Notes under the pieces: model-generated | Databases searched by the model: none | Seen by the model: the letters and a program-made list of their open reading frames with translations, nothing else | What the model was told of the DNA's origin: nothing | Shown: piece by piece, positions 2,150 to 33,343 of the stretch | How the letters are laid out: each line of letters begins with the position of its first letter | Position numbering within the stretch: the stretch's first letter is position 1 | Assembly (NCBI RefSeq): GCF_001879695.1 | Contig: NZ_MNBL01000016.1 | Span: 1-64,000 of the forward strand | Length of the DNA stretch: 64,000 nucleotides | Source: Nioella sediminis | GTDB taxonomy: Bacteria; Pseudomonadota; Alphaproteobacteria; Rhodobacterales; Rhodobacteraceae | Direction of reading: 5' to 3' | Program-made: the position numbers and the translations under genes

Positions 2150-3463
2150 ATGCGCGCCACCGGGCTAGTCATCATTGTCCTCTCCTGCCTGATCCCCGCC
2201 TATCTCTTCGCCACGCTGCCCGATATTGCCGACCCCGTGGCGCTGTTCAGCCAGTATCTTGGCACGCTGGCGCTGATCCTGATGGCCTGGGCGCAGATCA
2301 TGGCAACGCGCGCGCCCGGCATCGAGGCGCTGATGGGGCCGATGGACAAGGTCTATGTGCTGCACAAATGGTCCGGCATCGTCGCGATGACCGCGATCCT
2401 GCTGCATGATACGATTGACGCCGATATGGACGGGATCGGCCGGGAAACTGCCCTGACCGAAATCGCCGAAACCCTTGGGGAGCTGAGCCTTTACGGGCTG
2501 CTGGTTCTGGTGGTGATTTCCATCGCAACCTTCATCCCGTACCACCTGTGGCGCTGGACCCATAAGGCCATGGGCGGCTTCTTCATCGCCGGGGCCATCC
2601 ACTACCTGTTCATCCTCAAGCCCTTCGCCAATGGCTCCGCGCTCGGGCTCTATGTCGGTGCGATCTGCGGTCTGGGCGTGCTGGCCTATGCGGTCACGCT
2701 GCTGCCCCCTGCCCTGCGCCGGTCGACCGGCTATCAGGTCAGCAGTCTCCGCAAGACCGGCGGCGCGACCGAGATCACCATGACCCCGACCAGCCGCCCG
2801 CTGCGCTTTGCCCCCGGCCAGTTCGCCGTCTTCACCTTCGGATCGCGCGGCCTGACGGAACCGCACCCGTTTTCCCTCTCGGCCCCTCCGGCGGTGGACG
2901 GCACGCTCCAGATCACCGTCAAGGCGCTTGGCGATTTCACCCATCGTCTTGGCCGCGACCTGACGCCGGGCACCCCGTTGCGCGTTCAGGGGCCGTTCGG
3001 GCGGTTCCAGCGACGGACATGGGCCAACGCCGCTGAAATCTGGGTCGCCGGCGGCATCGGGATCACCCCCTTCCTGGCCTGGGCCGAGGCACTGCCCGAC
3101 ACGCTGCCCGCCCCGGTGACGCTTTTCTGGTGCGTCCGGTCCCGAGACGAGGCACCCCAGATCGAGCGGGTCGAGGCCGCCGCCAACCGCGTGGATAACC
3201 TGACGCTCCATATCCTCGCTTCCGACACGGGCGACCGGCTGACCGCCGACCGGATCGCAGCCACCGCCAATGGGCCGCTGAAGCTCTGGTTCTGCGGCCC
3301 CGCCGGGCTGCGCCGGGCGCTGCAATCGGGCCTTGCCCGCCACGGCATCAGCGCCCGTGACATCCATTACGAGGAGTTCGAGTTCCGCACCGGTATCGGC
3401 CTCAAACGCCTCGCCGCCCGGATCGCCAATCGGCTGAAGGACCGCGCCGCGCCTTCCCGCTGA
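2150..3463 (+). CDS. Ferric reductase-like transmembrane flavoprotein
   Basis: 437-residue membrane oxidoreductase. The N-terminal part has several hydrophobic helices with histidine pairs typical of b-type haem ligands (VLHKWSGIVAMTAILLH and WTHKAMGGFFIAGAIHYL). A FAD-binding barrel follows (RFAPGQFAVFTFGS, HPFSLSAPP), then a nucleotide-binding domain (WVAGGIGITPFLAW, FCGPAGLRRAL). This is the ferric reductase / NADPH oxidase-like layout, passing electrons from NAD(P)H through FAD to haem across the inner membrane. The natural acceptor (metal or other) is not shown by sequence. The start at ATG 2150 follows AAGG at 2137; an upstream TTG frame lacks a sensible N-terminus. The preceding 168 bases hold no gene. 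Confidence 0.82.
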   Translation: MRATGLVIIVLSCLIPAYLFATLPDIADPVALFSQYLGTLALILMAWAQIMATRAPGIEALMGPMDKVYVLHKWSGIVAMTAILLHDTIDADMDGIGRETALTEIAETLGELSLYGLLVLVVISIATFIPYHLWRWTHKAMGGFFIAGAIHYLFILKPFANGSALGLYVGAICGLGVLAYAVTLLPPALRRSTGYQVSSLRKTGGATEITMTPTSRPLRFAPGQFAVFTFGSRGLTEPHPFSLSAPPAVDGTLQITVKALGDFTHRLGRDLTPGTPLRVQGPFGRFQRRTWANAAEIWVAGGIGITPFLAWAEALPDTLPAPVTLFWCVRSRDEAPQIERVEAAANRVDNLTLHILASDTGDRLTADRIAATANGPLKLWFCGPAGLRRALQSGLARHGISARDIHYEEFEFRTGIGLKRLAARIANRLKDRAAPSR

Positions 3464-3554
3464 CCACCCCGGTCCTGCGGCACAACTTCCACCTGACAAT
3501 CCGGCGCCGCTTCTGTATGACGCGCGCAAACTCAAGATGAACGGACCCCATCCC

Positions 3555-4478
3555 ATGACCACGCTCGTATTCGGCCACAAATCCCCCGACACCGATTCCA
3601 CCGGCTCCCCCATCATCTGGGCCTGGTATCTGAACGAAGTGAAAGGCACCGACGCCGAAGCCGTCCTTCTGGGCGAGCCCAACACCGAAGCGGCTTTCGT
3701 GCTGCAGAAATGGGACCTGCCCAAGCCGCGCATCATCGACGCCGTCGATGCGGGCGCACCGGTTGTCATCGTCGACACCAACAACCCCGCCGAACTGCCC
3801 GACGCCATCAATGACGCCGATATTCAGGCGATCATCGACCACCACAAGCTGGTCGGCGGGATTGAGACCAAGGGCCCGATCGACATCACCATTCGCCCCG
3901 TGGCCTGCACCGCCACCATTATGCATGACCTGATGGGGGACGACGCCGCCAAGATGCCCGAGGCGATCAAGGGCGCGATGCTCTCTTGCATCCTTTCCGA
4001 CACGCTGGAATTCCGCAGCCCCACCACCACCGACCGCGACCGTGAAGTGGTCGAGGCGCTGGCCGCCGATCTGGGCATCGACACAGCCGCCTATGCCGCC
4101 GAGATGTTCGCCGCCAAATCCGACGTCTCCGCCTTCTCGGACGCCGAACTGCTGCGCATGGACTCCAAGGCCTATGAGGTCGCGGGCACCAAGTTCCGCG
4201 TCTCGGTTCTGGAAACCACCTCGCCCGGCACCGTCCTGTCCCGCAAAGACAGCCTTGTCGCCACCATGCCGCAAGTGGCCGAAGAAGACGGCGTCGATCA
4301 GGTGCTTCTGTTCGTGGTCGATATCCTGAACGAGGAATCCACCCTGCTGGTTCCCAACGATCTGGTGAAGACCGTGGCCGAGAAGAGCTTCGCCACCGTC
4401 GTGGGCGATGCCGACACCGTGGTCCTGCCCGGCGTCGTCAGCCGCAAAAAGCAGATCATCCCGAACCTGGCGCTCTGA
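3555..4478 (+). CDS. ppaC: Manganese-dependent inorganic pyrophosphatase (family II)
   Basis: Cytoplasmic enzyme that hydrolyses pyrophosphate to phosphate, pulling biosynthetic reactions forward. 307 residues, the usual size. DHH-family motifs are visible: GHKSPDTDS at residues 7-15, DTNNPAELP (about 71-79), the DHH signature in IIDHHKLVGG (about 91-100), and SDTLEFRSPTTTDRD in the second half of the first domain; a DHHA2-type C-terminal domain ends RKKQIIPNL. An in-frame ATG at 3537 would add six residues; the start at 3555 places the conserved MTTLVFGH at the N-terminus. A hairpin terminator follows closely. Monocistronic as far as can be seen. Confidence 0.93.
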   Translation: MTTLVFGHKSPDTDSTGSPIIWAWYLNEVKGTDAEAVLLGEPNTEAAFVLQKWDLPKPRIIDAVDAGAPVVIVDTNNPAELPDAINDADIQAIIDHHKLVGGIETKGPIDITIRPVACTATIMHDLMGDDAAKMPEAIKGAMLSCILSDTLEFRSPTTTDRDREVVEALAADLGIDTAAYAAEMFAAKSDVSAFSDAELLRMDSKAYEVAGTKFRVSVLETTSPGTVLSRKDSLVATMPQVAEEDGVDQVLLFVVDILNEESTLLVPNDLVKTVAEKSFATVVGDADTVVLPGVVSRKKQIIPNLAL

Positions 4479-4502
4479 TCCCGGATCGGCCAGTTTCAGC
4501 TT

Positions 4503-4538
4503 ACGCAAGGGGCGGCCATTGGCTGCCCCTTGTTGCGT
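4503..4538 (+). terminator. Intrinsic-type hairpin after the pyrophosphatase gene
   Basis: CAAGGGGCGGCC (4506-4517), loop ATT, and GGCTGCCCCTTG (4521-4532) form a 12-bp stem with one G-U pair. It is followed by a short T/G-rich stretch rather than a strong T-run. It lies 25 bases after the pyrophosphatase stop and before the next gene on the same strand, so termination or 3'-end protection is the natural reading. Confidence 0.6.
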
Positions 4539-4583
4539 CTGTGTCCCCGGCAGAAAATGAAGGCGCCCAACCAGAGGTGCCTC

Positions 4584-5105
4584 ATGCGACCCATCCTGCC
4601 CGCTGTCTTCACCCTTCTGCTGGCCACGCCCGTGCTGGCCGACAGCTACAGCCCGGCCCCCGGCGATATCGTGACCATCGGCCAGGGAGGGCTTGGCCTG
4701 TCATCCGCCGATGCGACCGCAACTGCCACCCTGCCCTTCGGCACGCCCTTTCATGAAAGCCTGCGGACCCTGACCATGATCATGGGCCATGATTTTTCGG
4801 TCTACCTGCCGGAAGACTGCCCCGCAGGCCCCGTTGTCGTCGCCAGCTTCACCCGCCAGATCGACCTGGTCTATCAAGAGGACCGATTGGCGGGCTGGAT
4901 GCTGCGCCCCGGCTCGACCCTGACCACGCAATCGGGGGTCGGCCTTGGCACGCCGCTGGCCGGACTTGGCGGTTTCGCAACGCTGGAGGTCATGGAATCC
5001 ACGCTCGGATGGGAATTCCAGGCCGGTGAGATCTCCGGCCTCCTGTCCGACAGGGAAGGCATCGTCAGCCATATCTGGTCCGGCACGGTCTGCGTGTTCC
5101 GCTAA
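4584..5105 (+). CDS. Hypothetical secreted protein
   Basis: 173 residues. The N-terminus MRPILPAVFTLLLATPVLA-DS reads as a Sec signal peptide with cleavage after ALA at about residue 19. The mature part is rich in Gly/Thr/Leu, has two cysteines (PEDCPAGP and the C-terminal TVCVFR) that could form a disulfide, and no motif I recognise. The start at 4584 follows AGAGGTG seven bases upstream; the longer frame from 4530 runs through the terminator hairpin and is not credible. It stands alone between the pyrophosphatase gene and the GTGTAC repeat. Confidence 0.7.
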   Translation: MRPILPAVFTLLLATPVLADSYSPAPGDIVTIGQGGLGLSSADATATATLPFGTPFHESLRTLTMIMGHDFSVYLPEDCPAGPVVVASFTRQIDLVYQEDRLAGWMLRPGSTLTTQSGVGLGTPLAGLGGFATLEVMESTLGWEFQAGEISGLLSDREGIVSHIWSGTVCVFR

Positions 5106-5140
5106 GCCGCCACCTTGCGAAAACAGCTTCATGTCTGAAC

Positions 5141-5184
5141 GGGGGTGTACAGGGGGTGTACGCCCGGTGCACGCCCGGCACCCC
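5141..5184 (+). repeat. GTGTAC array phased at 11 bp, copy 1
   Basis: GTGTAC occurs at 5145 and 5156, and the related GTGCAC at 5167, each exactly 11 bp apart and separated by G-rich spacers, then GGCACCCCCC closes the block. The same arrangement recurs at 54736. It sits 75 bases before the HAD phosphatase RBS, so it might be a regulatory site; it could equally be a dispersed non-coding repeat. Confidence 0.6.
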
Positions 5185-5258
5185 CCGATTTCGCCGCCCC
5201 TTCCCTTCCACGGACTGCTCCCGTAATCAGGCACCGACCCAGAAGGAGCCCGGCAAAA

Positions 5259-6131
5259 ATGACCACCATCATCCGCTCGCTATCCGAGATTTCCGACCGC
5301 TACGACGTGCTCTATTGCGACCTCTGGGGCTGCCTGCACAATGGCTACACCCCCTTTGCCGAGGCGGTCGAGGCGCTGCGCGCCTTCAAGGCCAAGGGCG
5401 GCTATGTCCTGCTTCTGACGAACTCCCCCCGCCCGCGTGCAAGTGTCGAGAAACAATTGGAAAAGATCGGCGTTCCGCGCGATTGCTGGGATGCGATCGC
5501 CAGTTCCGGCGACAGCGCCCGCGCGGCCATGCTGCGCGGTCTGGTGGGCCGCAAGGTCTGGTTCATCGGCCAGCCCCACGACCAGAGCTTTTTCGCGCCC
5601 ATGGAGGTCGTCAGCGACGCGGTCGAAATCACCCAGGTGCCGCTGGAAGAGGCCGAAGGCATCGTCTGCACCGGCCCAGAAGACCCCTCTGCCGACCCTG
5701 AGGTGATGCGCCCTAAGTTCCTGTATGCAAAACAGAAAAACCTCAAACTCCTCTGCGCGAATCCCGATATCGTCGTCGATCGTGGAGAGACCCGCGAATG
5801 GTGCGCGGGCGCGCTGGCGCAGCTCTATACCGAGATGGGCGGAGAGAGCCTCTATTTCGGCAAGCCCCACGCGCCGATTTACGAACTGGCGCGCATGCGG
5901 CTGGCACAGGCGGGGGTCGATTGCCCGCCCGAGCGCATCCTTGCCGTAGGCGACGGGCTGAAGACCGATATCCTGGGGGCACAGGGCGAACCCATTGATT
6001 CCCTGTTCATTTCCGGCGGCCTCAGCCGCGAGGATACTGGCACCACCGACCAGCCAGATCCGGAAAAACTGGACCAGGCGCTGACCGCTGCGCAGGTCGA
6101 GGCCACCTGGTCCATCGGCTTTCTGCGCTAG
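5259..6131 (+). CDS. HAD-superfamily class IIA hydrolase (TIGR01459-type)
   Basis: 290-residue cytoplasmic phosphatase-like protein. HAD motifs: DVLYCDLWGCLHNG (motif I, residues 14-27, with Trp in place of the more usual Asp two residues after the nucleophile), LLTNSPRPR (motif II, about 57-65), and VGDGLKTDILGA (motif IV, about 231-242). A class IIA cap lies between. This resembles the alphaproteobacterial TIGR01459 family, whose substrate is not established; NagD-like sugar- or nucleotide-phosphate hydrolysis is a guess. The start at 5259 has a strong AGAAGGAG at 5241. Not overlapping its neighbours. Confidence 0.88.
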   Translation: MTTIIRSLSEISDRYDVLYCDLWGCLHNGYTPFAEAVEALRAFKAKGGYVLLLTNSPRPRASVEKQLEKIGVPRDCWDAIASSGDSARAAMLRGLVGRKVWFIGQPHDQSFFAPMEVVSDAVEITQVPLEEAEGIVCTGPEDPSADPEVMRPKFLYAKQKNLKLLCANPDIVVDRGETREWCAGALAQLYTEMGGESLYFGKPHAPIYELARMRLAQAGVDCPPERILAVGDGLKTDILGAQGEPIDSLFISGGLSREDTGTTDQPDPEKLDQALTAAQVEATWSIGFLR

Positions 6132-13760: not shown

Positions 13761-16080
<2,320 letters not shown>

Positions 16081-16092
16081 TGCCTGACCTCC

Positions 16093-17631
16093 TTATGCGA
16101 AATCGGCGGCGAAGTCGTCGAGTGCTGCCTTGACCTTGTCTTCGAGCTCACCTTTGACCTTGCGGTCATTGTTGGTGATGTCGTCCAGCAGATCCTGGTT
16201 CTTGCCACGCAGATGTGCCAGCAGACCGGCCTCGAAGCGACCCACGTCGGACATTGCCACGTTGTCGAGGTAGCCGTTGGTACCGGCGTAGATCACGCAG
16301 ACGATCTCGGCGTTGGTCAGCGGCGAGTACTGCGGCTGCTTCATCAGCTCGGTCAGACGGGCACCCCGGTTCAGCAGGCGCTGAGTTGCGGCGTCGAGGT
16401 CGGAGCCGAACTGGGCGAAGGCGGCCATCTCGCGGTACTGGGCGAGCGACAGTTTCACCGGACCGGCAACCGAGGACATCGCCTTGGTCTGGGCGGAGGA
16501 CCCCACACGAGACACCGACAGACCGGTGTTCACGGCGGGGCGGATGCCCTGGTAGAACAGCTCGGTTTCCAGGAAGATCTGGCCGTCGGTGATCGAGATC
16601 ACGTTGGTCGGAATAAAGGCCGACACGTCGCCGCCCTGGGTTTCGATGATCGGCAGAGCGGTCAGCGAGCCAGCGCCGTGGTCTTCGTTCAGCTTGGCCG
16701 AACGTTCCAGCAGGCGGGAGTGGAGGTAGAAAACGTCACCGGGGTACGCTTCACGGCCCGGCGGGCGGCGCAGCAGCAGCGACATCTGACGATAGGACAC
16801 GGCCTGCTTGGACAGGTCATCATAGATGATCAGCGCGTGGCGGCCATTGTCGCGGAAGTATTCCGCCATTGCAGTTGCGGCGTAGGGGGCCAGGAACTGC
16901 ATCGGCGCGGGGTCGGATGCGGTAGCGGCCACGACGATCGAGTAGTCGATCGCGCCGGTTTCTTCCAGCTTCTTCACCAGCTGCGCAACGGTCGAGCGCT
17001 TCTGGCCAACGGCCACGTAGACGCAGTAGAGCTTCTTGCTCTCGTCGTCGCCGGCGGCGTCGTTGTAAGACTTCTGGTTCAGGATCGCGTCGAGCGCCAC
17101 GGCGGTCTTACCGGTCTGACGGTCGCCGATGATCAGTTCCCGCTGGCCACGGCCGATCGGGATCATGGCGTCAACGGACTTGAGGCCGGTTGCCATCGGT
17201 TCATGCACCGACTTACGCGGGATGATGCCCGGTGCCTTGCTGTCTGCAATGCGACGCTCGGCGGCTTCGATCGGGCCCTTGCCGTCGATCGGGTTGCCCA
17301 GACCGTCGACAACGCGACCGAGCAGACCGTCGCCCGCGGGCACGTCCACGATCGAGTTGGTGCGCTTGACGGTGTCGCCTTCCTTAATGTCCCGGTCGGA
17401 ACCGAAGATCACGACACCGACGTTGTCGGCTTCGAGGTTCAGCGCCATCCCCATGATGCCGCCGGGGAATTCGACCATCTCACCTGCCTGGACATTGTCC
17501 AGACCGTAAACACGGGCGATACCGTCACCAACGGAGAGCACACGGCCCACCTCGGCGACTTCGGCCTCCTGGCCAAAGCTCTTGATCTGCTCCTTGAGGA
17601 TCGCAGAGATCTCGGCTGCTTGGATAGTCAT
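16093..17631 (-). CDS. atpA: ATP synthase F1 alpha subunit
   Basis: 512 residues, usual length; non-catalytic nucleotide-binding partner of beta. Walker [19 protein letters not shown] at about residues 169-186, the [20 protein letters not shown] region and the ATP synthase alpha/beta signature [17 protein letters not shown] are present. Its ATG directly abuts the atpH stop (TAA ATG at 17634-17629), so the two are tightly coupled. Confidence 0.98.
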
Positions 17632-18192
17632 TTATCCGACCTCTTTCATAGTGTTCTGGAGGGTGTTGAGCTTGGAGCGGATCGACGTGTCGATCATCTT
17701 CGAGCCCACCTTAACGACAAGACCGCCAATGATGGATTCATCGACGGTCGCATTCAGTTTCACGTCCTTGCCAACGGCGGCCTTGAGGGCCTTTGCCAGC
17801 TTGTCGGACTGGGTTTTGGTCAGCGCCTTGGCCGACACGACATCGGCGGTCACTTCGCCTTTGTGATCCGCAATCATCCCACGCAGCGCGGCGGCCATCT
17901 GCGGCACCACGAACAGACGGCGCTTGGTGGCCATCAGTTTCAGCGTGTTGGACATGATTGCACCCAGGCCCATGGCCGAGGCAACGGCCGCAATACCGGC
18001 CTGCATGTCTTCGCGCGAATAGATCGGCGACGCGATCAGATCCCGCAGGTCTTCGCTGTCGGCCAATGCGCCTTCCAGCGTGGCCAGATCGGCCTCCAGC
18101 GCATCGAGCGCCTTATCCTCTGTGGCAAGATCGAACACCGCCGTCGCGTAGCGCGAGGCAATGCCGGTCGAGATCGAAGCTGTTTCCGACAC
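17632..18192 (-). CDS. atpH: ATP synthase F1 delta subunit
   Basis: 186 residues; peripheral-stalk connector that joins F1 to the b subunits. The N-terminus SETASISTGIASRYATAVFD, the C-terminal VTADVVSAKALTKTQSDKL and GGLVVKVGSKMIDTSIRSKL match the delta/OSCP family. I use the GTG start at 18192 with AAGGGTGG upstream; the frame is open to 18381 but the extra 63 residues do not resemble the family. First gene of the F1 operon; the F0 genes are not in the window, as expected for Rhodobacteraceae, which keep them in a separate operon. Confidence 0.93.
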   Translation of the reverse strand: MSETASISTGIASRYATAVFDLATEDKALDALEADLATLEGALADSEDLRDLIASPIYSREDMQAGIAAVASAMGLGAIMSNTLKLMATKRRLFVVPQMAAALRGMIADHKGEVTADVVSAKALTKTQSDKLAKALKAAVGKDVKLNATVDESIIGGLVVKVGSKMIDTSIRSKLNTLQNTMKEVG

Positions 18193-18491
18193 GTCCACCC
18201 TTCCGATACAGTGGCCGGGACCACATCCTGCGATGTGCCCGGCGGTTCTGTCTAAAGGCGGTATCTGTCCCCGCCCACCTGAAATCGCGCTGGATGTATC
18301 AGAGGGTTCTGCAGCCTGCAACAGCCACGGCAATTGGCACGAATCCGCTGAACCCCCTGTTTTTCCGGGGTTTTGACGCATTTTGCTGTCCTGCGACGCT
18401 TTGAAGCTAACGAATTTTCAAGCTTTTTCTGTGGATAAGGCGCGAGTCAGGTGCAACTGTATGCCTTGGCACACCACGGTATGCCCTCGAT
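18193..18491. other. Intergenic region upstream of the F1 operon
   Basis: About 300 bases between the methyltransferase stop and atpH, both on the - strand. It presumably contains the atp operon promoter, but no convincing -35/-10 pair is visible. A single perfect 9-mer DnaA-box match (TTATCCACA, - strand) lies at 18430-18438 next to AT-rich DNA. I see no gene. Confidence 0.4.
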
Positions 18492-22663: not shown

Positions 22664-23041
22664 TCAGGGAACCGGAATGCCGGTCGCGGGCGTGTCCTGG
22701 CTGAAGATATTGACCCAACCCTCACCGCTGCGACGCCAGATGGAGGAGACATACATCTCCTCTTCCTCTGCCCGACCAACCCGCAAATAGCGCGCGCGAT
22801 AGACCAACAACGCGTGGCCTGCGCCAAGCGGTTTCACCTGCCCATCGGTCAGATGGAACCGCACCACGGTCGGTCCACCCGCCAACTGCCCGGCATGGTC
22901 CCCCTTCCCGGCGAATCCGTCCGGGTAGACGCCCAGAAAATCCGCTGACAAGGCGGCGGCATCCGCTGCGGCGTCGCCTGCCACCAGGGCCTCCCACACA
23001 CGGGTTTCACAGGCCAGCAATTCGTCCCGAAGCGCGCTCAT
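22664..23041 (-). CDS. NTF2-like / DUF4440 family protein
   Basis: 125 residues with an NTF2-like (SnoaL/DUF4440) layout: an N-terminal helix MSALRDELLACETRVWEALV, then DAAALSADFLGVYPDGFAGK and the C-terminal strand YVSSIWRRSGEGWVNIFSQD typical of the cone-shaped fold. Function of this family is not general; members bind small ligands or act as isomerases. The start overlaps the stop of the giant OmpA-like gene upstream by four bases (23038-23041), so it is co-translated with the motor-like pair and could be an accessory protein to it. Confidence 0.75.
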   Translation of the reverse strand: MSALRDELLACETRVWEALVAGDAAADAAALSADFLGVYPDGFAGKGDHAGQLAGGPTVVRFHLTDGQVKPLGAGHALLVYRARYLRVGRAEEEEMYVSSIWRRSGEGWVNIFSQDTPATGIPVP

Positions 23042-26000
23042 CGCTCGGTGAGCTTCAGCTCGATCCGGCGGTTCTGGGCCTGCCCCTCAGGCGTGTCGTT
23101 GGACGCAATCGGGCGATACTCGCCAAACCCCGTCGCCGCCAGCCGCGCGGGTGGAAAGCCGAGCTCGTCGCTCATGAACAGCACCACCGACAGGGCGCGG
23201 GCCTGGCTCAGCTCCCAATTGTTGGCGTATTCGGCGGTCGGGCGCAGCTGCTGGTCATCGGTATGGCCATCGACCCGCACGATCCAATCCACCGACAGAG
23301 GGATTTCCCCTGCCACGTCGAACAGCAATTCCGCAACATTGGCGATCTGTGCCTCCCCTTCGGGAGAGAGATCGGCGGACCCGACCTCGAACAGCACCTC
23401 GGAGGCGAAGACGAAACGATCCCCCTCGATCCGCACGCCGTCGCGGCCTTCCAGCAATTCGCGCAGGCGGCCGAAGAACTCCGACCGGTAGCGCTCCAGC
23501 TCCTGCGCCTCGGCGGCCAGCCGTTCGGCCTCGGCCTCGGCCAGTCGCCGCGCTTCCGCCTCGGCCTCGGCGCGGGCCGCTTCGGATTCCGCCAGCGCAT
23601 CGCTTTCGGCGGCCAGCCGCGCCAGCGCCGCGTTCAGATCGGCCCCGAGCGTTTCCACCTGCACCTGCGCCGCCGCATCCGCCGCCTGCGAAGCATCGAG
23701 CAGCCCCTGCAACTCGCCAAGCTGCGTGCGCAGCGCCGCCACCTGTTCGTTCAACGCCGCGATCTGTCGCTGACTTTCTGCCGAGGCCGCCTCTGCCGTT
23801 TCCAGTTCCAGATTGGCCTGTGCCAGCAATGCCGACTGCTGCTCGGCTTCGCTCAACCGGTCTTCGGCGGTGGTCTCGGCCAGCATCTGCGCGGTCAGCG
23901 CGGCGGCCAGTTGCTCCTCCAGCTCAGACAGTGCGCCTGCGGCTTCTGCTCCCGCCGATTCCCGCGCGGCCTCGGACGCCGCCAGTTCCGCCTCAAGCGC
24001 CGCAATGCGCGATTCCGCCGTTTGTTCGGCCCGCGCCAGATCCAGCAGGGCCTGTGTCAGCTCTGCCTCCATTGCGGTCAGGGCCGTCTGGTTGGCGGCC
24101 TGCTCTTCACGGAGGACAGCGCTTTCGGCCTGTGCGGCAGAGAGATCGGCCTCGACCTCCTCCACCCGGTCCGCTGCCAGCGTGGCCCGCGCAAGCGCTG
24201 CGGCCAGCTCCGCCTCCAGCGCCGTCAGTTCCGCACCGCGCCGGGCCAGCCCCTCTTCGGCGGCCTGGGATTCGGCCTGAGCGGCGACCAGATCCGTTTC
24301 CAGCGCAGCGATGCGCGCCGCATCCTCGCCGGCCTGCGCCTGTGCCGACTGAAGCGCTGCGGCCAGTTGCGTTTGCAGCGCATCGAGGCTTTCGGAGCTG
24401 TTATCGAGATCCGATTGCGCGGCGGCGGCTTCGGCCTGCGCGGTTCCCAGATCCTGTTCCAGCGCCGTGATCCGTTCTGCGTCGCGCGTGGCGCGCACAA
24501 GGGCTGCGGCCAGCTCGGCCTCCAGCCGCGTCAATGTGGCCCTGCTCTCGGTCAGTTCCGCCTGAGCCGCGGCGGCAGTGCCTTCGGCTGCGGCTACGTC
24601 TGCCTCCAGCTGCGCGAGCCGCCCGGCATCCGCTTCCGCGCGCCGGTCGGCCTGTTGCAGGGCCGTGGCAAGCTGTGTTTCCAACCCGGCGACAGTTTCC
24701 TCGCTTGCCGTCAGGGCGGCCGCTGTCGCGGCGGCATTGGCATTGGCCGCTGCGATATCCTCTTCGAGTTCTGCGATCCGCGTGCGGCTTTGCGTGGCTT
24801 GTGCTGTCAACCGGGCCAGTGCGCGCGCCAGTTCCTCCTCCAGCGATGACATCTCGCCAGCGCGCTCCTCCGCCACCGATTGCGCGGCTTCCAGCGCCGC
24901 CTGTGTCTCGGCCAGGGCAGCGGCGTCCTGCGCGCGGGCGGCAAGCGCCAAGGCCAGTTGACCCTCCAGATCCGACAAGCGTCCCGCTGCCTCGCTGGCG
25001 GCGGCGAGACTCGTCTCCAATTCCTCGATCCGGTCGCCCTGCGCGGTGTTGTCAGCCAACGCCGCGGCCAGACGGGCTGCAAAGTTCTCCCGCGCCTGAT
25101 CGGCAGCGGCCAGCAGCGTCAGGGTATCCTCCGCCTCCTGCCGCCGCTGTTCCAGCGCAAGCGCAATGGCGGTCAGTTCGGCATCGGCCTCCTGCAGGCG
25201 GGCGCGCAGGGCTTCGGCGGCGGCGGCTTCGGCCAGACGCGCGGCCTCTTCGTCGGAAAGCTGCGCCTGAGTATCCGCCAGCCGGTCGCGCAGGGCGGCA
25301 GCGGCAGCGGCCTCGGCCAGACGTGCGGCCTCCTCGCTGTCGAGATCGGTTTCCAGCACCGAGAGCCGTTCGCGCAGCGCAGCCGCCGCCGCCTGTTCCG
25401 CCAACAGCGCCGCTTCCTCTGCGGTCAGCTCCTGCTCCAGTTCTGCGATCTGCGCTTCGAGCGATGCGGTCAGGGCTTCCTCGCCTGCCAGCGCGGCCAG
25501 CGCCGTGGTCAGGTCGGTCTGCAACCCCGCCGAGTTTTCTTCCTGCGCCTGCAAGGCGGCCAGCGTGTCGGCGAGCGTCGCCTCCTGCGCAGCAGCCTCG
25601 GATTCCAGATCGGCGATCAGCGCCTCCAGCGCCTCGCGTTCGGCAGCGGCCAGGCGCGCCTGTTCGGCGGCGGCGTCGATCTCGTCTCGCGCGGTGGCAA
25701 GGGCCAGCGTCAGCGCGTCAACCTCTGACACCCGCGCCTCCAGATCCGCCTGCACCGCGTCGCGTTCCTCGGTCAGATCCGTGTTGGCCGCAATGAGCGA
25801 GGCCACCTGCGCCTCGAAATCGGCGATGCGCGCGGCCTGCCCCTCGGTTTCAGCCGTCAGCGAGGCGATCAGCGCGGCCTGCATCTGCAATTCGCCCTCG
25901 GCCTCTGACAGGCTGGCACCAAGCGTCGCAACCCGCTGTTCCAGCTGTGCCGAGCGGCTTTGCGCCAGGCCGAGTGCGTCGGCCAGTTCATTAAGCTGCG

Positions 26001-26178
26001 CGTTCAGAACGTTCAGCTCGTCATCCTGATTGTTGATCGTTTCCGACAGCACGAACTGCACGATCATGAAGATCGTCAGAACGAAGATCATCACCATCAA
26101 GAGCGCGGTGATGGCATCCACGAAACCGGGCCAGATCGAGGCGGTAAATCGCGTGCCGGAACGCCGGTGGAAGGCCAT
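23038..26178 (-). CDS. Giant MotB/OmpA-like protein with a roughly 850-residue coiled coil
   Basis: 1046 residues. Residues 12-48 form one transmembrane helix of MotB/ZorB type: SIWPGFVDAITALLMVMIFV carries an Asp (D21) at the place of the ion-binding Asp of stator proteins. Residues about 50-900 are almost purely Ala/Glu/Leu/Arg heptads (coiled coil), including three 28-residue repeats at 254-337. Residues 916-1046 are an OmpA-type peptidoglycan-binding domain: VDGHTDD (about 969-975), NWELSQARALSVV (about 987-999) and NRRIELKL. Expected topology: short cytoplasmic tail, one TM, everything else periplasmic. Three bases after the ExbB/MotA-like gene. Purpose unknown. Confidence 0.85.
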   Translation of the reverse strand: MAFHRRSGTRFTASIWPGFVDAITALLMVMIFVLTIFMIVQFVLSETINNQDDELNVLNAQLNELADALGLAQSRSAQLEQRVATLGASLSEAEGELQMQAALIASLTAETEGQAARIADFEAQVASLIAANTDLTEERDAVQADLEARVSEVDALTLALATARDEIDAAAEQARLAAAEREALEALIADLESEAAAQEATLADTLAALQAQEENSAGLQTDLTTALAALAGEEALTASLEAQIAELEQELTAEEAALLAEQAAAAALRERLSVLETDLDSEEAARLAEAAAAAALRDRLADTQAQLSDEEAARLAEAAAAEALRARLQEADAELTAIALALEQRRQEAEDTLTLLAAADQARENFAARLAAALADNTAQGDRIEELETSLAAASEAAGRLSDLEGQLALALAARAQDAAALAETQAALEAAQSVAEERAGEMSSLEEELARALARLTAQATQSRTRIAELEEDIAAANANAAATAAALTASEETVAGLETQLATALQQADRRAEADAGRLAQLEADVAAAEGTAAAAQAELTESRATLTRLEAELAAALVRATRDAERITALEQDLGTAQAEAAAAQSDLDNSSESLDALQTQLAAALQSAQAQAGEDAARIAALETDLVAAQAESQAAEEGLARRGAELTALEAELAAALARATLAADRVEEVEADLSAAQAESAVLREEQAANQTALTAMEAELTQALLDLARAEQTAESRIAALEAELAASEAARESAGAEAAGALSELEEQLAAALTAQMLAETTAEDRLSEAEQQSALLAQANLELETAEAASAESQRQIAALNEQVAALRTQLGELQGLLDASQAADAAAQVQVETLGADLNAALARLAAESDALAESEAARAEAEAEARRLAEAEAERLAAEAQELERYRSEFFGRLRELLEGRDGVRIEGDRFVFASEVLFEVGSADLSPEGEAQIANVAELLFDVAGEIPLSVDWIVRVDGHTDDQQLRPTAEYANNWELSQARALSVVLFMSDELGFPPARLAATGFGEYRPIASNDTPEGQAQNRRIELKLTER

Positions 26179-26181
26179 GGA

Positions 26182-27399
26182 TCAGCCCTCCGGGGCCGGG
26201 TCTTCGGGGGGCGCACGACGTTGCGGGGCGGGGCGTTGGCGGGGCTGCGAGGCCGAGCGCGTCAGTTCCCGGATCGCGCCGGTCAGCTCGCCGATATCGG
26301 CGCGCAGGGCGCCAATCTCTTCCTGCCGCGAACTGCCCATTTCTTCGAAGATCTTCAGCAACTGCACGTCGATGGACCGCAGCCGCATCCGGCTTTCCGC
26401 ATCAATGCCGCCCTCGCCGGACGTGGCCGACAGCACCTCGGCCAGCCGGTCCTGCGCCGCCGACAGACGTTCGGTCGCGGCAACCTGTCCGGGTCCGAGC
26501 CGTTCCGCAAGGTCCGCCAGCACGCCGGTCATCTCGCCAAGCCGTGCCTCGGTTTCCTGATGGCGCGCCTCGGATTGGGTGAAGAGACCCTGCAACGTGT
26601 CGATCTGATCGACCATGTGATCCAGCACCGTGGCAATCGCGGCCCGGTCCAGCCCGCCGCCTTCGCCCTCTCCCGATGAAAAACTGACGCGGGTGATCGT
26701 GGACAGCCATTCTTCCATTTCGCGGTAGAACCGGTTCTGGCCATGGCCCGCGAACAGTTCCAGCAACCCCACGACCAGCGACCCGGCAAGACCAAGCAAC
26801 GAGGAGGCGAAGGCCGTACCCATGCCGCCCAGTTGTTCCTCCAGCCCGCCCATCAGGCGTGAAAACACCTCGATCCCGGACTCGTCGGCAGAGGGTTGCA
26901 GCGAGCGGATCGTTTCCACCACCGCAGGCACCGTGACCGCAAGCCCGTAGAACGTGCCCAGAAGCCCAAGGAAAATCAGCAGGCTGGTGATGTAGCGCGT
27001 GATGTCGCGCGCCTCTTCCATCCGCGCGCCCACGGAATCCAGCACCGAGCGCGACGAGGCGGAGGTCAATTGCAGCCGCGAACCACGTGCCTGAAAGATG
27101 CCCGACAGCGCTGCCAGCAGAAGCGGCGGTTTGCCCTGATCCTCACCCGCACCATTGGCGATCCCCTCGATCCAGGAAATCGACGAGAACAATTGCACAA
27201 CCTGCCAGAAACAGGCCAGAACGCCCGCGAAGAACACAAGCGCGATGGTTCCATTGAGATAGGTATTGGCGGTCACGACCGGCTGGATGCTGCCCCAGAC
27301 CAGGAAGGTGCCAAAACCGACCAGCCCGCAGATCATCAGCATGATTGCGATCTGGCGGATCGGTTGCGTAAAGCGCGGCGCGTCTGGTCTGCTCGTCAC
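26182..27399 (-). CDS. MotA/TolQ/ExbB-like proton channel protein
   Basis: 405 residues. Four hydrophobic helices at about 17-36, 51-72, 136-158 and 194-217. The third contains LLIFLGLLGTFYGLAVTVPA and the fourth GGMGTAFASSLLGLAGSLVV, the paired channel helices of the ExbB/TolQ/MotA family. A cytoplasmic loop separates helices 2 and 3, and a C-terminal tail of about 185 residues with predicted coiled coil (ending in a Pro/Arg/Gln-rich low-complexity stretch) follows, as in ZorA. Encoded directly before the MotB/OmpA-like partner, so the two likely form an inner-membrane ion-driven complex anchored to peptidoglycan. No TonB/TolA-like or flagellar gene is near. Confidence 0.83.
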   Translation of the reverse strand: MTSRPDAPRFTQPIRQIAIMLMICGLVGFGTFLVWGSIQPVVTANTYLNGTIALVFFAGVLACFWQVVQLFSSISWIEGIANGAGEDQGKPPLLLAALSGIFQARGSRLQLTSASSRSVLDSVGARMEEARDITRYITSLLIFLGLLGTFYGLAVTVPAVVETIRSLQPSADESGIEVFSRLMGGLEEQLGGMGTAFASSLLGLAGSLVVGLLELFAGHGQNRFYREMEEWLSTITRVSFSSGEGEGGGLDRAAIATVLDHMVDQIDTLQGLFTQSEARHQETEARLGEMTGVLADLAERLGPGQVAATERLSAAQDRLAEVLSATSGEGGIDAESRMRLRSIDVQLLKIFEEMGSSRQEEIGALRADIGELTGAIRELTRSASQPRQRPAPQRRAPPEDPAPEG

Positions 27400-27496: not shown

Positions 27497-28039
27497 TCAC
27501 CCCTGTTTCAGCGCCCGAACCCGGCGCACCAGCCAGTCGAGATCCTCATCCGCCAGATCAAGCTCGGCCAGATGGGCGGCGGTGTTATACAGGTATTCAT
27601 CATTCGGCCCGCGCCCACCGACCGCATGGGCGATGATCTGCGCCTGCTTTTCAAGGCTCATCCCCGCCACATATTGCTCATGCTCGGGGTCGATCACATA
27701 GGTGACGGCCATCGCCTCGCCGCCGCCATGGAAAGTGATCGGCAATTCGCGTTCCAGATAGGCCGAAGAGATCAGCTCCCGCTCCCTAAGATAGTCGATG
27801 GTGGCAGGCGCGTTTGCGGCCTCCACCCGGAAGGCCACACCATCGCAATGGGCCCCTTCTGCCGCGTCAAGCGCTAGCACCAGACCGGGGCTTTCCACCG
27901 TGCCGCGATGGTGGATCGAGCTCATGCAGAAGGACCGGTGCCAGCCCGGCAGCCGTGCGATCCGGGTCTCGGCCACGTCAAAACCGGGGTTCCAGATCAG
28001 CGATCCGTATCCGAACACCCAAAGATCCGCCGTGCTCAT
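27497..28039 (-). CDS. chaC: Gamma-glutamylcyclotransferase (ChaC family)
   Basis: 180 residues. Expected to cleave glutathione to 5-oxoproline and Cys-Gly in the cytoplasm. Family features: LWVFGYGSLIWNPGF (residues 6-20), the RGTVESPGLVLALD region, the catalytic Glu in YLRERELISSAYLERE and the C-terminal GPNDEYLYNTAAHL. The ATG at 28039 begins the conserved part; the frame is open far upstream but antisense to the DUF2125 gene. Divergent from that gene with 84 bases between the starts. Confidence 0.9.
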   Translation of the reverse strand: MSTADLWVFGYGSLIWNPGFDVAETRIARLPGWHRSFCMSSIHHRGTVESPGLVLALDAAEGAHCDGVAFRVEAANAPATIDYLRERELISSAYLERELPITFHGGGEAMAVTYVIDPEHEQYVAGMSLEKQAQIIAHAVGGRGPNDEYLYNTAAHLAELDLADEDLDWLVRRVRALKQG

Positions 28040-29125: not shown

Positions 29126-29597
29126 CCCTCGCAACCAAAGAAACATTTTCACTGCGCTTGATGCTGGAGGTTGGTTCGGCACTCCCATGGGAAGCGGACA
29201 AATGTCAGCTGAGAGCCCTCTTTGACAAATGCTGCAGATTGATCGAATGAGTGAAATGCGGTGAAACCGGGCGTAGGTCACGGGATAAATCCCCGAAAAG
29301 CGAACACGGAGATGTGAGAAAACTGCTGCCACTTGTAGTTTACACTGCAATCGAGAGTGCTTGCTGGGCAGGTCCACATTTCTGTTGACAGACTGTCCTA
29401 TGCTCGGGCTTCATTTCTGGAGTAGGAAAGAGCGAGAGCGACCAGATATGGCGCAACGCATGATGGCAAATTTGGGGCGCCGGGCAACCGGCTGTGATCT
29501 CGTCGTATGACGTGAAGCTGGCTATTTGTCGATTCGGCAGTTGCTGGACCGGGTATTCACACCTCTTCTGACTTTCCTGCATTTTTGGTTTCTCTTC
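29126..29597. other. Gene-poor region before the hydantoinase operon
   Basis: About 470 bases of visibly lower GC than the surroundings, with no gene I can support: short frames at 29021-29377 and 29340-29603 on the - strand have no recognisable protein features. It probably holds the promoter of the operon and may mark the left edge of an inserted segment. Confidence 0.5.
29385..29413 (+). promoter_or_regulatory. Possible promoter of the hydantoinase operon (weak)
   Basis: A perfect TTGACA at 29385-29390 lies inside the inverted repeat CTGT-TG-ACAG (29382-29391). A -10 candidate CTTCAT at 29409-29414 is poor (3 of 6). The inverted repeat could be an operator. It is about 210 bases before the hyuA ATG. 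Confidence 0.25.
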
Positions 29598-31697
29598 ATG
29601 CACAACAAGAACGGGCTACGCCTTGCCGTCGATATTGGTGGCACTTTCACCGATACGGTCCTGGTTGATGGGAAGGGGCATATCCTTGCCACCACCAAAA
29701 CACCGACCACTCCTGAAAATCCGACCCTTGGGGCGCTTGCGGGCACAAAACATGTGCTGGCCGGGACCGGAGCGGACTGGTCGCGGATCGGTGGCTTCAT
29801 CCATGGCACCACTCTGGCCACCAATGCTCTTATCGAGCGGCGCGGGGCCAATGTTGCGACGGTGACGAGCGAGGGGTTTCGAGATATTCTCGAGATCGCC
29901 TATGAACGCCGCTACAGCCAGTATGATATTAACCTTGTCAAACCTGATCTGATCGTGCCGCGCACGCGCGCCTTTATCATAGGCGGGCGGATGGATGCGC
30001 GTGGGCAGGAGCTGCAACCGCTTGATGAGGAGGCCGTTCGCCGGTTGACCGGGGAGCTTGATGCCTGTGGTGCCGAGGCCGTGGCGATCTGCCTGATGCA
30101 TGCCTATGCCAACCCGGCACATGAACTGAGGCTGCGCGATCTTCTGCTGGCGGCAATGCCCGATCTGGTGATCTCGCTATCGCACGAGGTCAGCCCCGAG
30201 GCACGTGAGTTCGACCGGCTCTCAACCACCATCGCCAACGCCTATATCCAGCCTCAGATGGCCAGTTACCTGATCAATTTTCAGGCGCGATTCAGCAACG
30301 AAGGCCTGACCTGCCCGATCCTGATGATGACTGCGGGCGGTGGCATGACGACGATGGAAACCGCCGCGCGTCTGCCGATCCGGCTGGTGGAGTCCGGCCC
30401 TGCTGGGGGGGCTATTCTGGCCGCGCGCATCGCTGCCGAGACCAGCGAGCGCGAGGTGTTGAGTTTCGATATGGGCGGCACCACGGCCAAGCTGTGTCTG
30501 ATCGACCGGTTTCGCCCGCAGACCGCACGCAAGTTCGAAATCGCGCGCGCGGCGCGGTTCATCAAGGGCTCTGGCATGCCGGTGCGCATCCCGGTGATCG
30601 AGATGATCGAGATCGGCGCGGGCGGCGGATCGATCGCCCATGTGGACCGGTTGGGCCGCCTGCAGGTCGGACCAGAGAGCGCGGGGTCTGAGCCCGGACC
30701 CGCCGCCTTTGCCAAGGGCGGAACCGAGCCGACGGTGACCGATGCCGACGTGATGCAGGGGCTGATCGAACCCGGGCGCTTTGCCGAAGGGCGGCTCAGG
30801 ATCGACATGGATGCGGCGAAAAGGGCGCTTGCCTCGGGCGTTGGGCAGGCGCTGAAGCTTGACGCCGCACAGGCCGCCCATGGGGTCAGCGAGATCGTGG
30901 ATGAGAACATGGCCGCCGCCGGGCGGATGCATGCTGTGGAATCGGGCAAGGATCTGGGCGCCCGGCTGATGATCGCCTTTGGCGGCAATGGCCCCTTGCA
31001 CGCCACCCGGGTGGCGCGGCGTGCGCATGTGGACCGCATCCTGATCCCGCGCGATCCCGGGGTCGGCTCGGCGGTGGGGTTCCTGTTCGCGCCGGTCTCG
31101 TTTGAAATCATTCGCTCGCGCTATAGTACGCTCGATGCGCTCGACCTCGGCGGGCTCAACGCCTTCTTCAACGCAATGATCGACGAGGCCGAGGCTGTGG
31201 TGAGGGCAGGTGCGCCAGAGGGCCTGCTGACCCGGCGACGGCAGGCGTTCATGCGTTATCACGGACAGGGGCACGAGATTGAAATCCCACTGCCTGACCG
31301 CGCCTTGGAAGAGGCGGACATTCCCGCCCTGCGCCGAGCCTTCGAGGAGGAATACAGCCGCCAATTCAGCCGCGCTGTGCCGGGCATGAAGATCGAGATC
31401 CTGAACTGGACGCTTGAGGTCGCCTCCGAGCCGCCCGCGCTGGAGCATTACGCCAAAACCCGCGTGAAACAGCCTGCGCAACCGTCCGGGCAGCGGCGCA
31501 TCCTGTGCGATGTCACCGGCAAATGGCGCGAGGCAGAAATCCATGATCGCGCCGCACTCAGGCCCGGCGACCATCTTGACGGCCCCTCCCTGATCATCGA
31601 GCCGCAGACCACCACATTCGTCAGCGCGGATTTCTCAGCTCATGTGGATGGCGGCGGCAATATCTGGCTCACACGCAACCGGGAGGGTGACCAATGA
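29598..31697 (+). CDS. hyuA: Hydantoinase/oxoprolinase A-type subunit
   Basis: 699 residues, usual size. ATP-dependent cyclic-amide hydrolase subunit (N-methylhydantoinase A / 5-oxoprolinase / acetophenone carboxylase-like family). ASKHA ATPase motifs are visible: LAVDIGGTFTDTVLVD (about 9-24), GTTLATNALIERRGA (about 71-85), SFDMGGTTAKLCLID (about 291-305) and FGGNGPLHATRVARR. No good ribosome site precedes ATG 29598; an upstream TTG frame from 29526 would add a hydrophobic tail that does not match the family. Overlaps hyuB by ATGA. Whether it opens a hydantoin, imide or lactam, or carboxylates a ketone, cannot be decided. Confidence 0.9.
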   Translation: MHNKNGLRLAVDIGGTFTDTVLVDGKGHILATTKTPTTPENPTLGALAGTKHVLAGTGADWSRIGGFIHGTTLATNALIERRGANVATVTSEGFRDILEIAYERRYSQYDINLVKPDLIVPRTRAFIIGGRMDARGQELQPLDEEAVRRLTGELDACGAEAVAICLMHAYANPAHELRLRDLLLAAMPDLVISLSHEVSPEAREFDRLSTTIANAYIQPQMASYLINFQARFSNEGLTCPILMMTAGGGMTTMETAARLPIRLVESGPAGGAILAARIAAETSEREVLSFDMGGTTAKLCLIDRFRPQTARKFEIARAARFIKGSGMPVRIPVIEMIEIGAGGGSIAHVDRLGRLQVGPESAGSEPGPAAFAKGGTEPTVTDADVMQGLIEPGRFAEGRLRIDMDAAKRALASGVGQALKLDAAQAAHGVSEIVDENMAAAGRMHAVESGKDLGARLMIAFGGNGPLHATRVARRAHVDRILIPRDPGVGSAVGFLFAPVSFEIIRSRYSTLDALDLGGLNAFFNAMIDEAEAVVRAGAPEGLLTRRRQAFMRYHGQGHEIEIPLPDRALEEADIPALRRAFEEEYSRQFSRAVPGMKIEILNWTLEVASEPPALEHYAKTRVKQPAQPSGQRRILCDVTGKWREAEIHDRAALRPGDHLDGPSLIIEPQTTTFVSADFSAHVDGGGNIWLTRNREGDQ

Positions 31698-33343
31698 GCA
31701 CCACCGACACCCGCCTGCAGGTCATGTGGAATCGGCTTCTGGCCGTGGTTGAGGAACAGGGCCAGGCGCTGATCCGCGCGGCCTTTTCCCCAATCGTGCG
31801 CGAATGCGGGGACATTTCCGCCGGTGTCTTTGACTTGCAGGGCCGGATGCTGGCGCAGGCCGTGACCGGCACGCCGGGCCATATCAACACCATGGCCGAG
31901 GCGGTAAAGACCCTGCGCGCCCGGTTTCAGCTTCAAGATATGAAACCGGGCGATATTTACCTGACCAACGATCCATGGATCGCCTCGGGGCACCTGAATG
32001 ATTTCCTGCTGATGATGCCGGTTTTCTTTAAGGGTCACGTGGTGGGCTTTACCTCCTGCACCTCGCATCTGGTTGATCTGGGCGGGCTTGGCATGGGCCC
32101 CGAGGGTGCGGACATCTATGACGAGGGGCTGCTTATCCCGCCCTGCAAGCTGATGAACGAAGGCGCTTTGAACACCCTCCTGATGGAGATCGTCAAGGCC
32201 AACTCGCGCGAGCCCATCGCCAACGAAGGCGATATCTATGCGCTGATCGCTTGCTGTGAAACCGGTGCAGAGCGGCTTGCGGGCATGATGGAGGAATTCG
32301 GCATCGACCATCTGGATGAACTGGCCGACTATATTATCGACACCTCATATCGCGGGACCGTTGAGGCTATTGCGGAACTGCCCAAGGGGACGTGGCACAA
32401 TGTGCTGAAGGTGGACGGATATGAGCAGGAGATTGACCTGCACGCGGCCCTGACCATCAGCGAAGATCGCGTTGAACTGGATTTCACCGGCACATCTGGC
32501 CTGTCGAACAAGGGCATCAACGTACCGCTCAACTATGCCACCGCTTATTCGGTGTTTGCCCTTCGCTGCATCATCGGGCCGGACATTCCCAACAATGCGG
32601 GCTCGCTTGAGCCTTTCCGCGTCACAGGGCCAAAGAACTGTATCCTGAACGCCCAGCCCCCCGCACCGGTGGCCATGCGCCATACGCTGGGGCAGATGAC
32701 GCCCGATCTGGTCTATGGCTGCCTGTCACAGGTTCTGCCGGATCAGGTGCCTGCCGAGGGCGCATCCTGCATGTACGACCTGCCGTTGCGCCACACGCCC
32801 GAAGCGGTTTCGCGTGGCGATGCGCAATTTGCGCTGGAGCTTGTGTTCAGCGGTGGCACCGGCGCGCGGCCCGGTCTGGACGGGCTGTCGGCCACCGCTT
32901 TTCCCTCGGGCGTCTGGGGCTCGCAGGTGGAAACCACCGAGGCGGTTGCGCCGGTTCTGATCACCCGGCGCGAGCTAATACCAGACAGCGGCGGGCCCGG
33001 ACGAACGCGCGGCGGGCTGGGTCAGCATATCGAGATGCGATCCGCCGTGAATGAGGATTTCATGCTGTTTCTTTCGGTCGAACGGATTCTGAACCCTGCG
33101 CGCGGGCGTTTCGGCGGGGAGGCTGGTGCGCCGGGGCGTATCCGCATCGGCCATGGCGGATCTAACCTGCCCGGCAAGGGAGAGGTTCGGGTGAAGGCCG
33201 GAGAAACGTTGCTTTTTGAGACTCCGGGCGGCGGCGGCTTTGGCGACCCACAAAAACGCAGCCGGGACGAGGTTCGCCGTGATCTGGACGAGGGGTTGAT
33301 CAGCCGGGAAGCTGCGCGCGATATCTATGGGTTCAAACCATGA
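31694..33343 (+). CDS. hyuB: Hydantoinase/oxoprolinase B-type subunit
   Basis: 549 residues, usual size for the B subunit that works with HyuA. Family signatures: AAFSPIVRECGDISAGVFD, GTPGHINTM, DIYLTNDPWIASGHLNDFLL, VGFTSCTSHLVDLGG with metal-binding His/Asp residues, and the Gly-rich C-terminal ETPGGGGFGDPQKR. Its ATG overlaps the hyuA stop and its stop overlaps the aminotransferase start, so A, B and the following genes are translationally coupled. Confidence 0.92.
   Translation: MSTTDTRLQVMWNRLLAVVEEQGQALIRAAFSPIVRECGDISAGVFDLQGRMLAQAVTGTPGHINTMAEAVKTLRARFQLQDMKPGDIYLTNDPWIASGHLNDFLLMMPVFFKGHVVGFTSCTSHLVDLGGLGMGPEGADIYDEGLLIPPCKLMNEGALNTLLMEIVKANSREPIANEGDIYALIACCETGAERLAGMMEEFGIDHLDELADYIIDTSYRGTVEAIAELPKGTWHNVLKVDGYEQEIDLHAALTISEDRVELDFTGTSGLSNKGINVPLNYATAYSVFALRCIIGPDIPNNAGSLEPFRVTGPKNCILNAQPPAPVAMRHTLGQMTPDLVYGCLSQVLPDQVPAEGASCMYDLPLRHTPEAVSRGDAQFALELVFSGGTGARPGLDGLSATAFPSGVWGSQVETTEAVAPVLITRRELIPDSGGPGRTRGGLGQHIEMRSAVNEDFMLFLSVERILNPARGRFGGEAGAPGRIRIGHGGSNLPGKGEVRVKAGETLLFETPGGGGFGDPQKRSRDEVRRDLDEGLISREAARDIYGFKP

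Follow-up and report, generated by a model that had tools for sequence, protein, structure and literature searches.

We analyzed a 64,000-nucleotide stretch of the Nioella sediminis genome (hereafter the window), in which an original prediction, made from the DNA letters alone, had singled out two neighboring minus-strand reading frames as a possible undescribed ion-driven machine. Both frames were confirmed. The upstream gene encodes the channel, or A subunit (26182–27399, minus strand; 405 residues, GTG start), and the downstream gene encodes a coiled-coil/OmpA protein, or B subunit (23038–26178, minus strand; 1046 residues), whose start codon lies 3 nucleotides beyond the A stop codon. B is laid out as a cytoplasmic tip (residues 1–15), a transmembrane helix with D21 in the motif WPGFVDA, a coiled coil (approximately residues 46–905; 23464–26043, minus strand), and an OmpA domain (residues 929–1037; 23068–23394, minus strand). 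Among named relatives, Nioella ostreopsis is nearest; its channel and B are 98% and 95% identical, respectively, and of the same length. Below, own family denotes the family of the window, class denotes the Alphaproteobacteria, and the class sample or class loci are alphaproteobacterial sequences from outside the own family.

The channel has no match in Pfam (cut-off 0.001) or NCBIfam. The Pfam MotA_ExbB profile (PF01618) does not recognize it and returned just TolQ and MotA from the same genome; the profile may not cover the branch that holds this channel. Nevertheless, an AlphaFold model of the channel (predicted local distance difference test score, pLDDT, of 80) resembles TolQ, ExbB, ZorA, and MotA structures, with predicted helices at residues 14–33, 46–81, 113–166, and 175–241 that would make up the channel fold, and at 251–384 a predicted cytoplasmic tail. 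Foldseek matched the model to TolQ, ExbB, and ZorA with a probability of 1.00 (E values from 4e-3 to 1e-2). The VIA comparison gave Z scores of 11.6 for TolQ (193 residues aligned, root-mean-square deviation 3.8), 10.1 for ZorA, and 9.4 and below for MotA; TolQ and ExbB are the closest in structure. Some unrelated helical bundles, which tend to receive middling scores, came nearly as high against the model, hence part of the argument for a channel fold is carried by two motifs, GLLGTFxGL (145–153, containing T149) and SLxGL (200–204, containing S200), which are invariant or nearly so. Searching the PDB by sequence with the whole channel profile returned chance coiled-coil matches alone, and searching with its membrane part returned a single insignificant match, to a MotA/TolQ/ExbB domain (8vvi, E 1.7). 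Collectively, the modeled fold and the motifs place the channel in the ExbB/TolQ/MotA/ZorA ion-channel superfamily, in line with the ExbB/TolQ/MotA-like protein with a long cytoplasmic tail that had been predicted. Since TolQ and MotA are encoded separately in the same genome, this channel is additional to the Tol system and to the flagellar-type stator subunit.

The signature and transmembrane segment of B (residues 16–44; 26047–26133, minus strand) carries four residues, W16, V20, D21, and F32, that are invariant in 121 of 121 aligned relatives, and the D21-containing motif is present in all 80 further named loci. The original prediction had read D21 as a stator-type aspartate and proposed its conservation as a check, which came out in its favor. 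At the other end of B, the Pfam OmpA profile (PF00691) matches residues 929–1037 (E 3.8e-15), and the loop of this domain is of the longer, MotB type (GHTD...NWELSxxR). D974 and R994 are invariant in one alignment (A4), as are the equivalent D443 and R462 in another (A6); by analogy, these are putative peptidoglycan-binding positions. B scores 736.4 bits against a curated cut-off of 388 with NCBIfam model NF006542 (PRK09039, 'peptidoglycan -binding protein'), all five PRK09039 models (NF006542–NF006546) match every one of 30 class B proteins scanned, and the NCBIfam MotD/MotS models match B weakly. We noted two divergent pairs, at loci L304 (genome G677, 3128–5668, plus strand; channel open frame of 573 residues) and L302 (genome G761), where B is short, lacks GHTD, and is encoded ahead of the channel, possibly a variant that has lost the wall-binding domain.

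The two genes are inherited together. Of 289 alphaproteobacterial genomes, 189 have the channel, with a single copy in that of the window, and 186 match a profile built on the membrane segment of B; both genes occur in 185 genomes and neither in 99, leaving five discordant (Fisher p 2e-71). Furthermore, A and B adjoin on one strand in 121 of 121 fetched regions. Co-inheritance of the pair, another check proposed at the outset, was therefore borne out, by adjacency and by joint presence or absence in 284 of the 289 genomes. Within the own family, the B profile has matches in all 149 genomes, some of them merely generic OmpA matches; four of the six genomes with the weakest B matches also lack the channel, and in the other two the channel lies in short open frames, one of them near a contig end. 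The pair is kept in genomes of 0.7–0.9 Mb. Outside the class, adjacent pairs with a shorter B (357–388 residues) occur in genomes that appear to be of beta/gammaproteobacterial type, and no relatives of the pair were found on viral contigs. The pair probably forms a distinct, vertically inherited branch of the ExbB/TolQ-MotA-ZorA superfamily.

Residues 46–905 of B contain no proline, lysine, or histidine, and their hydrophobicity repeats mainly at a period of 3.5. This 860-residue coil is strongly acidic (172 aspartate plus glutamate versus 56 arginine residues) with alanine at many core positions, a composition suggestive of a thin acidic Ala-coil. A coiled coil rises ~0.1485 nm per residue, which gives a straight length of ~128 nm, close to the ~125 nm first estimated. 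That the coil of B is oddly long was also part of the original prediction; the long coil is there, but the window B ranks 54th of 61 own-family B proteins sampled and is not exceptional in its family. Total B length spans 303–914 residues in the class sample and 525–2363 in the own family, and the rod varies more than tenfold in length between species (coils of ~100–2150 residues). The longest B (L118, 4912–12007, plus strand, genome G302; ~2364 residues) has a coil of ~2150 residues that would measure ~320 nm if straight, and its register drifts steadily with a period of 3.53. Across the family, there are six prolines in 48,816 coil residues, and the top hydrophobic period falls between 3.47 and 3.53 in 117 of 117 coils. 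Tandem DNA repeats were considered as a cause of length change and rejected, there being none of note in the coil gene.

As an alignment-independent measure of heptad register, we took the distance in residues from D21 to the GHTD motif of the OmpA domain, modulo 7. This distance is 3 modulo 7 in 39 of 56 class sequences; when each length is counted once, 25 of 39 remain at 3 modulo 7 (p 3.5e-17, treating distinct lengths as independent although the sequences share descent, as do all p values for register), while moduli 5, 6, 8, 9, and 11 are flat. Own-family distances peak at 3 and 6 modulo 7 (p 2e-4), with p 0.03 for modulus 8 and the other moduli flat, and 74 named loci fall mainly at 3 (32 loci), 6 (16), and 0 (14), that is, at whole and half heptads. 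Two class members, L164 and L172, hold a single register over ~700 residues. Pairwise indel sizes, 47% of which are multiples of 7, are not our main evidence since the aligner itself prefers heptad-sized gaps in a heptad repeat, a bias from which total lengths are free. We also examined the length distribution for longer periods, such as a superhelix pitch, and nothing clear emerged beyond 3.5/7. Because length changes hugely but mostly by whole repeat units, continuity of the coil seems to matter more than its length.

The pair has different surroundings inside and outside the own family. Inside it, chaC lies directly upstream on the same strand in 60 of 60 loci and in 75 of 80 named loci (in the window, a chaC-like gene of ~180 codons, PF04752, at 27497–28039, minus strand), and is a possible operon partner; clpA is convergent and downstream in about three quarters of loci. 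In class loci, efp and suhB are followed by a gene for a secreted protein and then by the channel and B genes, with suhB in 52 and efp in 48 of 60 loci. The gene for this secreted protein immediately precedes that for the channel in 53 of 60 class loci and in none of 140 own-family loci, where chaC occupies its place; seven own-family genomes gave no clear copy of it. The protein starts with a signal-peptide-like stretch and continues through a proline-rich part to an OmpA-like domain at the C terminus, whose GHTD aspartate is replaced (AYA), with the C-terminal motif SLSRALxVRSxLIExGVxSTRxDVRALG among class loci L121–L180 (for example, L144, 7273–8313, minus strand, and L125, 1708–2949, plus strand). 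We regard this degenerate-OmpA protein as a candidate third component. The two longest class coils, those of L164 and L172, are among the seven class loci without the secreted-protein gene, the other five being of ordinary length, and coils above 632 residues occur in the class sample only where that gene is not beside the pair; the association involves few lineages and does not amount to a test. The third component originally suggested was an NTF2-like protein (DUF4440, PF14534; 22664–23041, minus strand). Its ATG does overlap the B stop codon, but among 200 alphaproteobacterial loci the gene lies beside the pair only in the window and in one Nioella (L183); it was rejected as non-conserved and is regarded as a lineage-specific neighbor. 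Elsewhere in the window, genes resembling atpD, atpG, atpA, and atpH of ATP synthase lie at 13761–18381 (minus strand). Two adjoining plus-strand genes near chaC (29526–33343) resemble hydantoinase/oxoprolinase A and B subunits; like these, chaC is part of glutathione/gamma-glutamyl metabolism.

We propose, with a probability of roughly 0.55, that the pair is a wall-anchored, ion-driven module for cell-envelope upkeep. By analogy with the superfamily, five A subunits would ring two B helices, and ions passing via D21 would either rotate the A ring, cytoplasmic tail included, with respect to B or exert a pull on B. The B dimer would act as a stiff, mostly lateral periplasmic arm through which the motor grips peptidoglycan at a distance: a rod of 15–320 nm cannot span a periplasm of a few tens of nanometers, hence the longer rods must lie along the wall or bend. 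A coil that tolerates changes in length while keeping continuity and register is as expected of an arm that would bear torque or tension, and housekeeping neighbors (efp-suhB or chaC) together with retention in genomes of 0.7–0.9 Mb fit an envelope role. Of the motor reading originally put forward, the two-part channel/stator architecture, the invariant aspartate, and the strict pairing stand; the motor itself we infer from that aspartate and the channel motifs, and the lateral arm from its size.

Several observations weigh against this proposal. About a third of the sampled Alphaproteobacteria lack the pair, hence it is not universally needed. The window B is itself an exception to the register rule, with a D21-to-GHTD distance of 950 (5 modulo 7) and a coil register that is constant over residues ~46–466 and then drifts. 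Heptad keeping is also what the folding of any continuous coiled coil needs, and is no proof of torque transmission. Moreover, the low-confidence AlphaFold model of the B monomer (pLDDT 64) has helix breaks at residues ~268–319, 512–519, and 739–753, which leave a folded-back coil possible. Lastly, ion flow, rotation, the 5:2 stoichiometry, and localization are all inferred.

A bolder version would make the B dimer a phase-locked torque shaft: an unbroken, parallel coiled coil, 15 to >300 nm long, lying in the periplasm like a flexible drive cable and transmitting rotation or tension from the ion-driven channel to some remote site on the wall. Its length would evolve freely but only by whole or half heptads, so that the ends stay in register, and loss of the secreted protein may have freed its elongation. 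We consider this version speculative and unlikely.

Other explanations start from the same evidence. The channel might serve as a Tol-like force transducer, moving B or the secreted degenerate-OmpA protein to pull on or remodel the outer membrane or wall, as TolA/TolR and Pal do, with the coil as excess reach. TolQ and ExbB as best structural matches, and the gene for a secreted, proline-rich OmpA-like protein directly upstream in most class loci, are consistent with this idea, and a reach of TolA beyond the width of the periplasm has been discussed (PMC12204202). However, that third gene is missing beside the pair throughout the 140 own-family loci and has no clear copy in the seven genomes searched, TolQ is encoded separately, and B has its own well-conserved OmpA domain, a feature of MotB/ZorB; we find a Tol-like role rather unlikely. 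Simpler still, B could merely join the inner membrane to the wall, with the channel merely holding B in the membrane. The tolerance of very large changes in coil length and the conserved, putative wall-binding domain would suit such a passive tether, but the invariant buried aspartate and the channel motifs (the T149/T156 region and S200) are hard to account for without ion passage, and the tether seems decidedly improbable.

We give very little weight to an anti-phage role like that of Zorya, or to a derivative of such a system, even though the channel matches the ZorA1 profile (E 3e-11) and B the ZorB3 profile (E 4e-23), and genuine Zorya III pairs are among the distant matches outside the class (E ~1e-11 to 1e-13). 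With the ZorA3 and ZorB3 profiles, the pair scores 24.8 and 79.9 bits versus 1000–1700 and 375–380 for true pairs, and none of the ten neighboring proteins in the window matches a zor profile, as expected from the initial remark that zorC and zorD are not here. Unlike a mobile or sporadic defense system, the pair is near-universal in its own family, in single copy, with housekeeping synteny and without relatives on viral contigs. An accessory flagellar stator, suggested by the MotB-type OmpA domain, the weak MotD/MotS matches, and a weak association with FliM (p 0.049; FliM matches in 110 of 185 genomes with the pair), is just as hard to credit: 75 of the 185 have no FliM match (some possibly missed, as Rhodobacteraceae come out negative), the pair is missing from 49 genomes with FliM, MotA is separate, and no flagellar neighbors were present in the loci examined. 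Flagellar membership thus fails on distribution and neighbors.

A motor-like two-gene module in about two thirds of the sampled Alphaproteobacteria, including genomes below 1 Mb, would add to the 5:2 motors a wall-anchored, non-flagellar branch with a very long, length-variable periplasmic arm. A recent survey described non-flagellar 'generic' B subunits without recognizable OmpA homology (PMC12505986), a division that the present family, with a TolQ/ExbB-like channel and a B with a MotB-type OmpA domain, does not fit. The family also offers a natural length series, with which one could directly test what reach, stiffness, and phase contribute to a periplasmic motor.

Compared with known systems, B falls well above the curated cut-off of PRK09039. 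Those models cover 342–627 positions and are exceeded by the long coils seen here, and PRK09039 is a family name only, with no function, motor partner, or mechanism described in the literature searched. Our literature searches for experimental, transposon-sequencing (Tn-seq), or phenotype work on the pair likewise found nothing. The word 'undescribed' in the original prediction thus suits the function, whereas B had already been named; the genes are not new, but the pair as a motor-type module, its heptad-quantized hypervariable arm, and the upstream degenerate-OmpA protein seem undescribed within that literature. Outside PRK09039, the closest curated profiles with a comparable two-gene layout are those of Zorya type III, which shares adjacent A and B genes, an A with a cytoplasmic tail, and a B with a W-x-x-F-x-D membrane motif and an OmpA domain. 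ZorAB forms a 5:2 assembly with a cytoplasmic tail and wall binding (PMC11890865). Zorya had been named at the outset as the nearest concept, which agrees with ZorA profiles scoring this channel but not the TolQ or MotA of the same genome. In Zorya III, however, the ZorA tail is long (open frames of 698–1049 residues) and ZorB is short (217–243 residues), the reverse of the present pair, which, on profile scores and neighbors, is not Zorya. TolQR and ExbBD provide the best structural matches for the channel and share a GLLGTxxG-type motif, but the channel escapes PF01618 and the TolQ of its own genome is a separate gene. To our knowledge, TolR and ExbD have neither an OmpA domain nor a long coil. 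MotAB and PomAB share with B the domain order of a transmembrane helix with an aspartate followed by a MotB-type OmpA domain. They differ in a lower structural match and the absence of flagellar linkage here, and in having a short plug/linker where the present B proteins have a coil of ~100–2150 residues.

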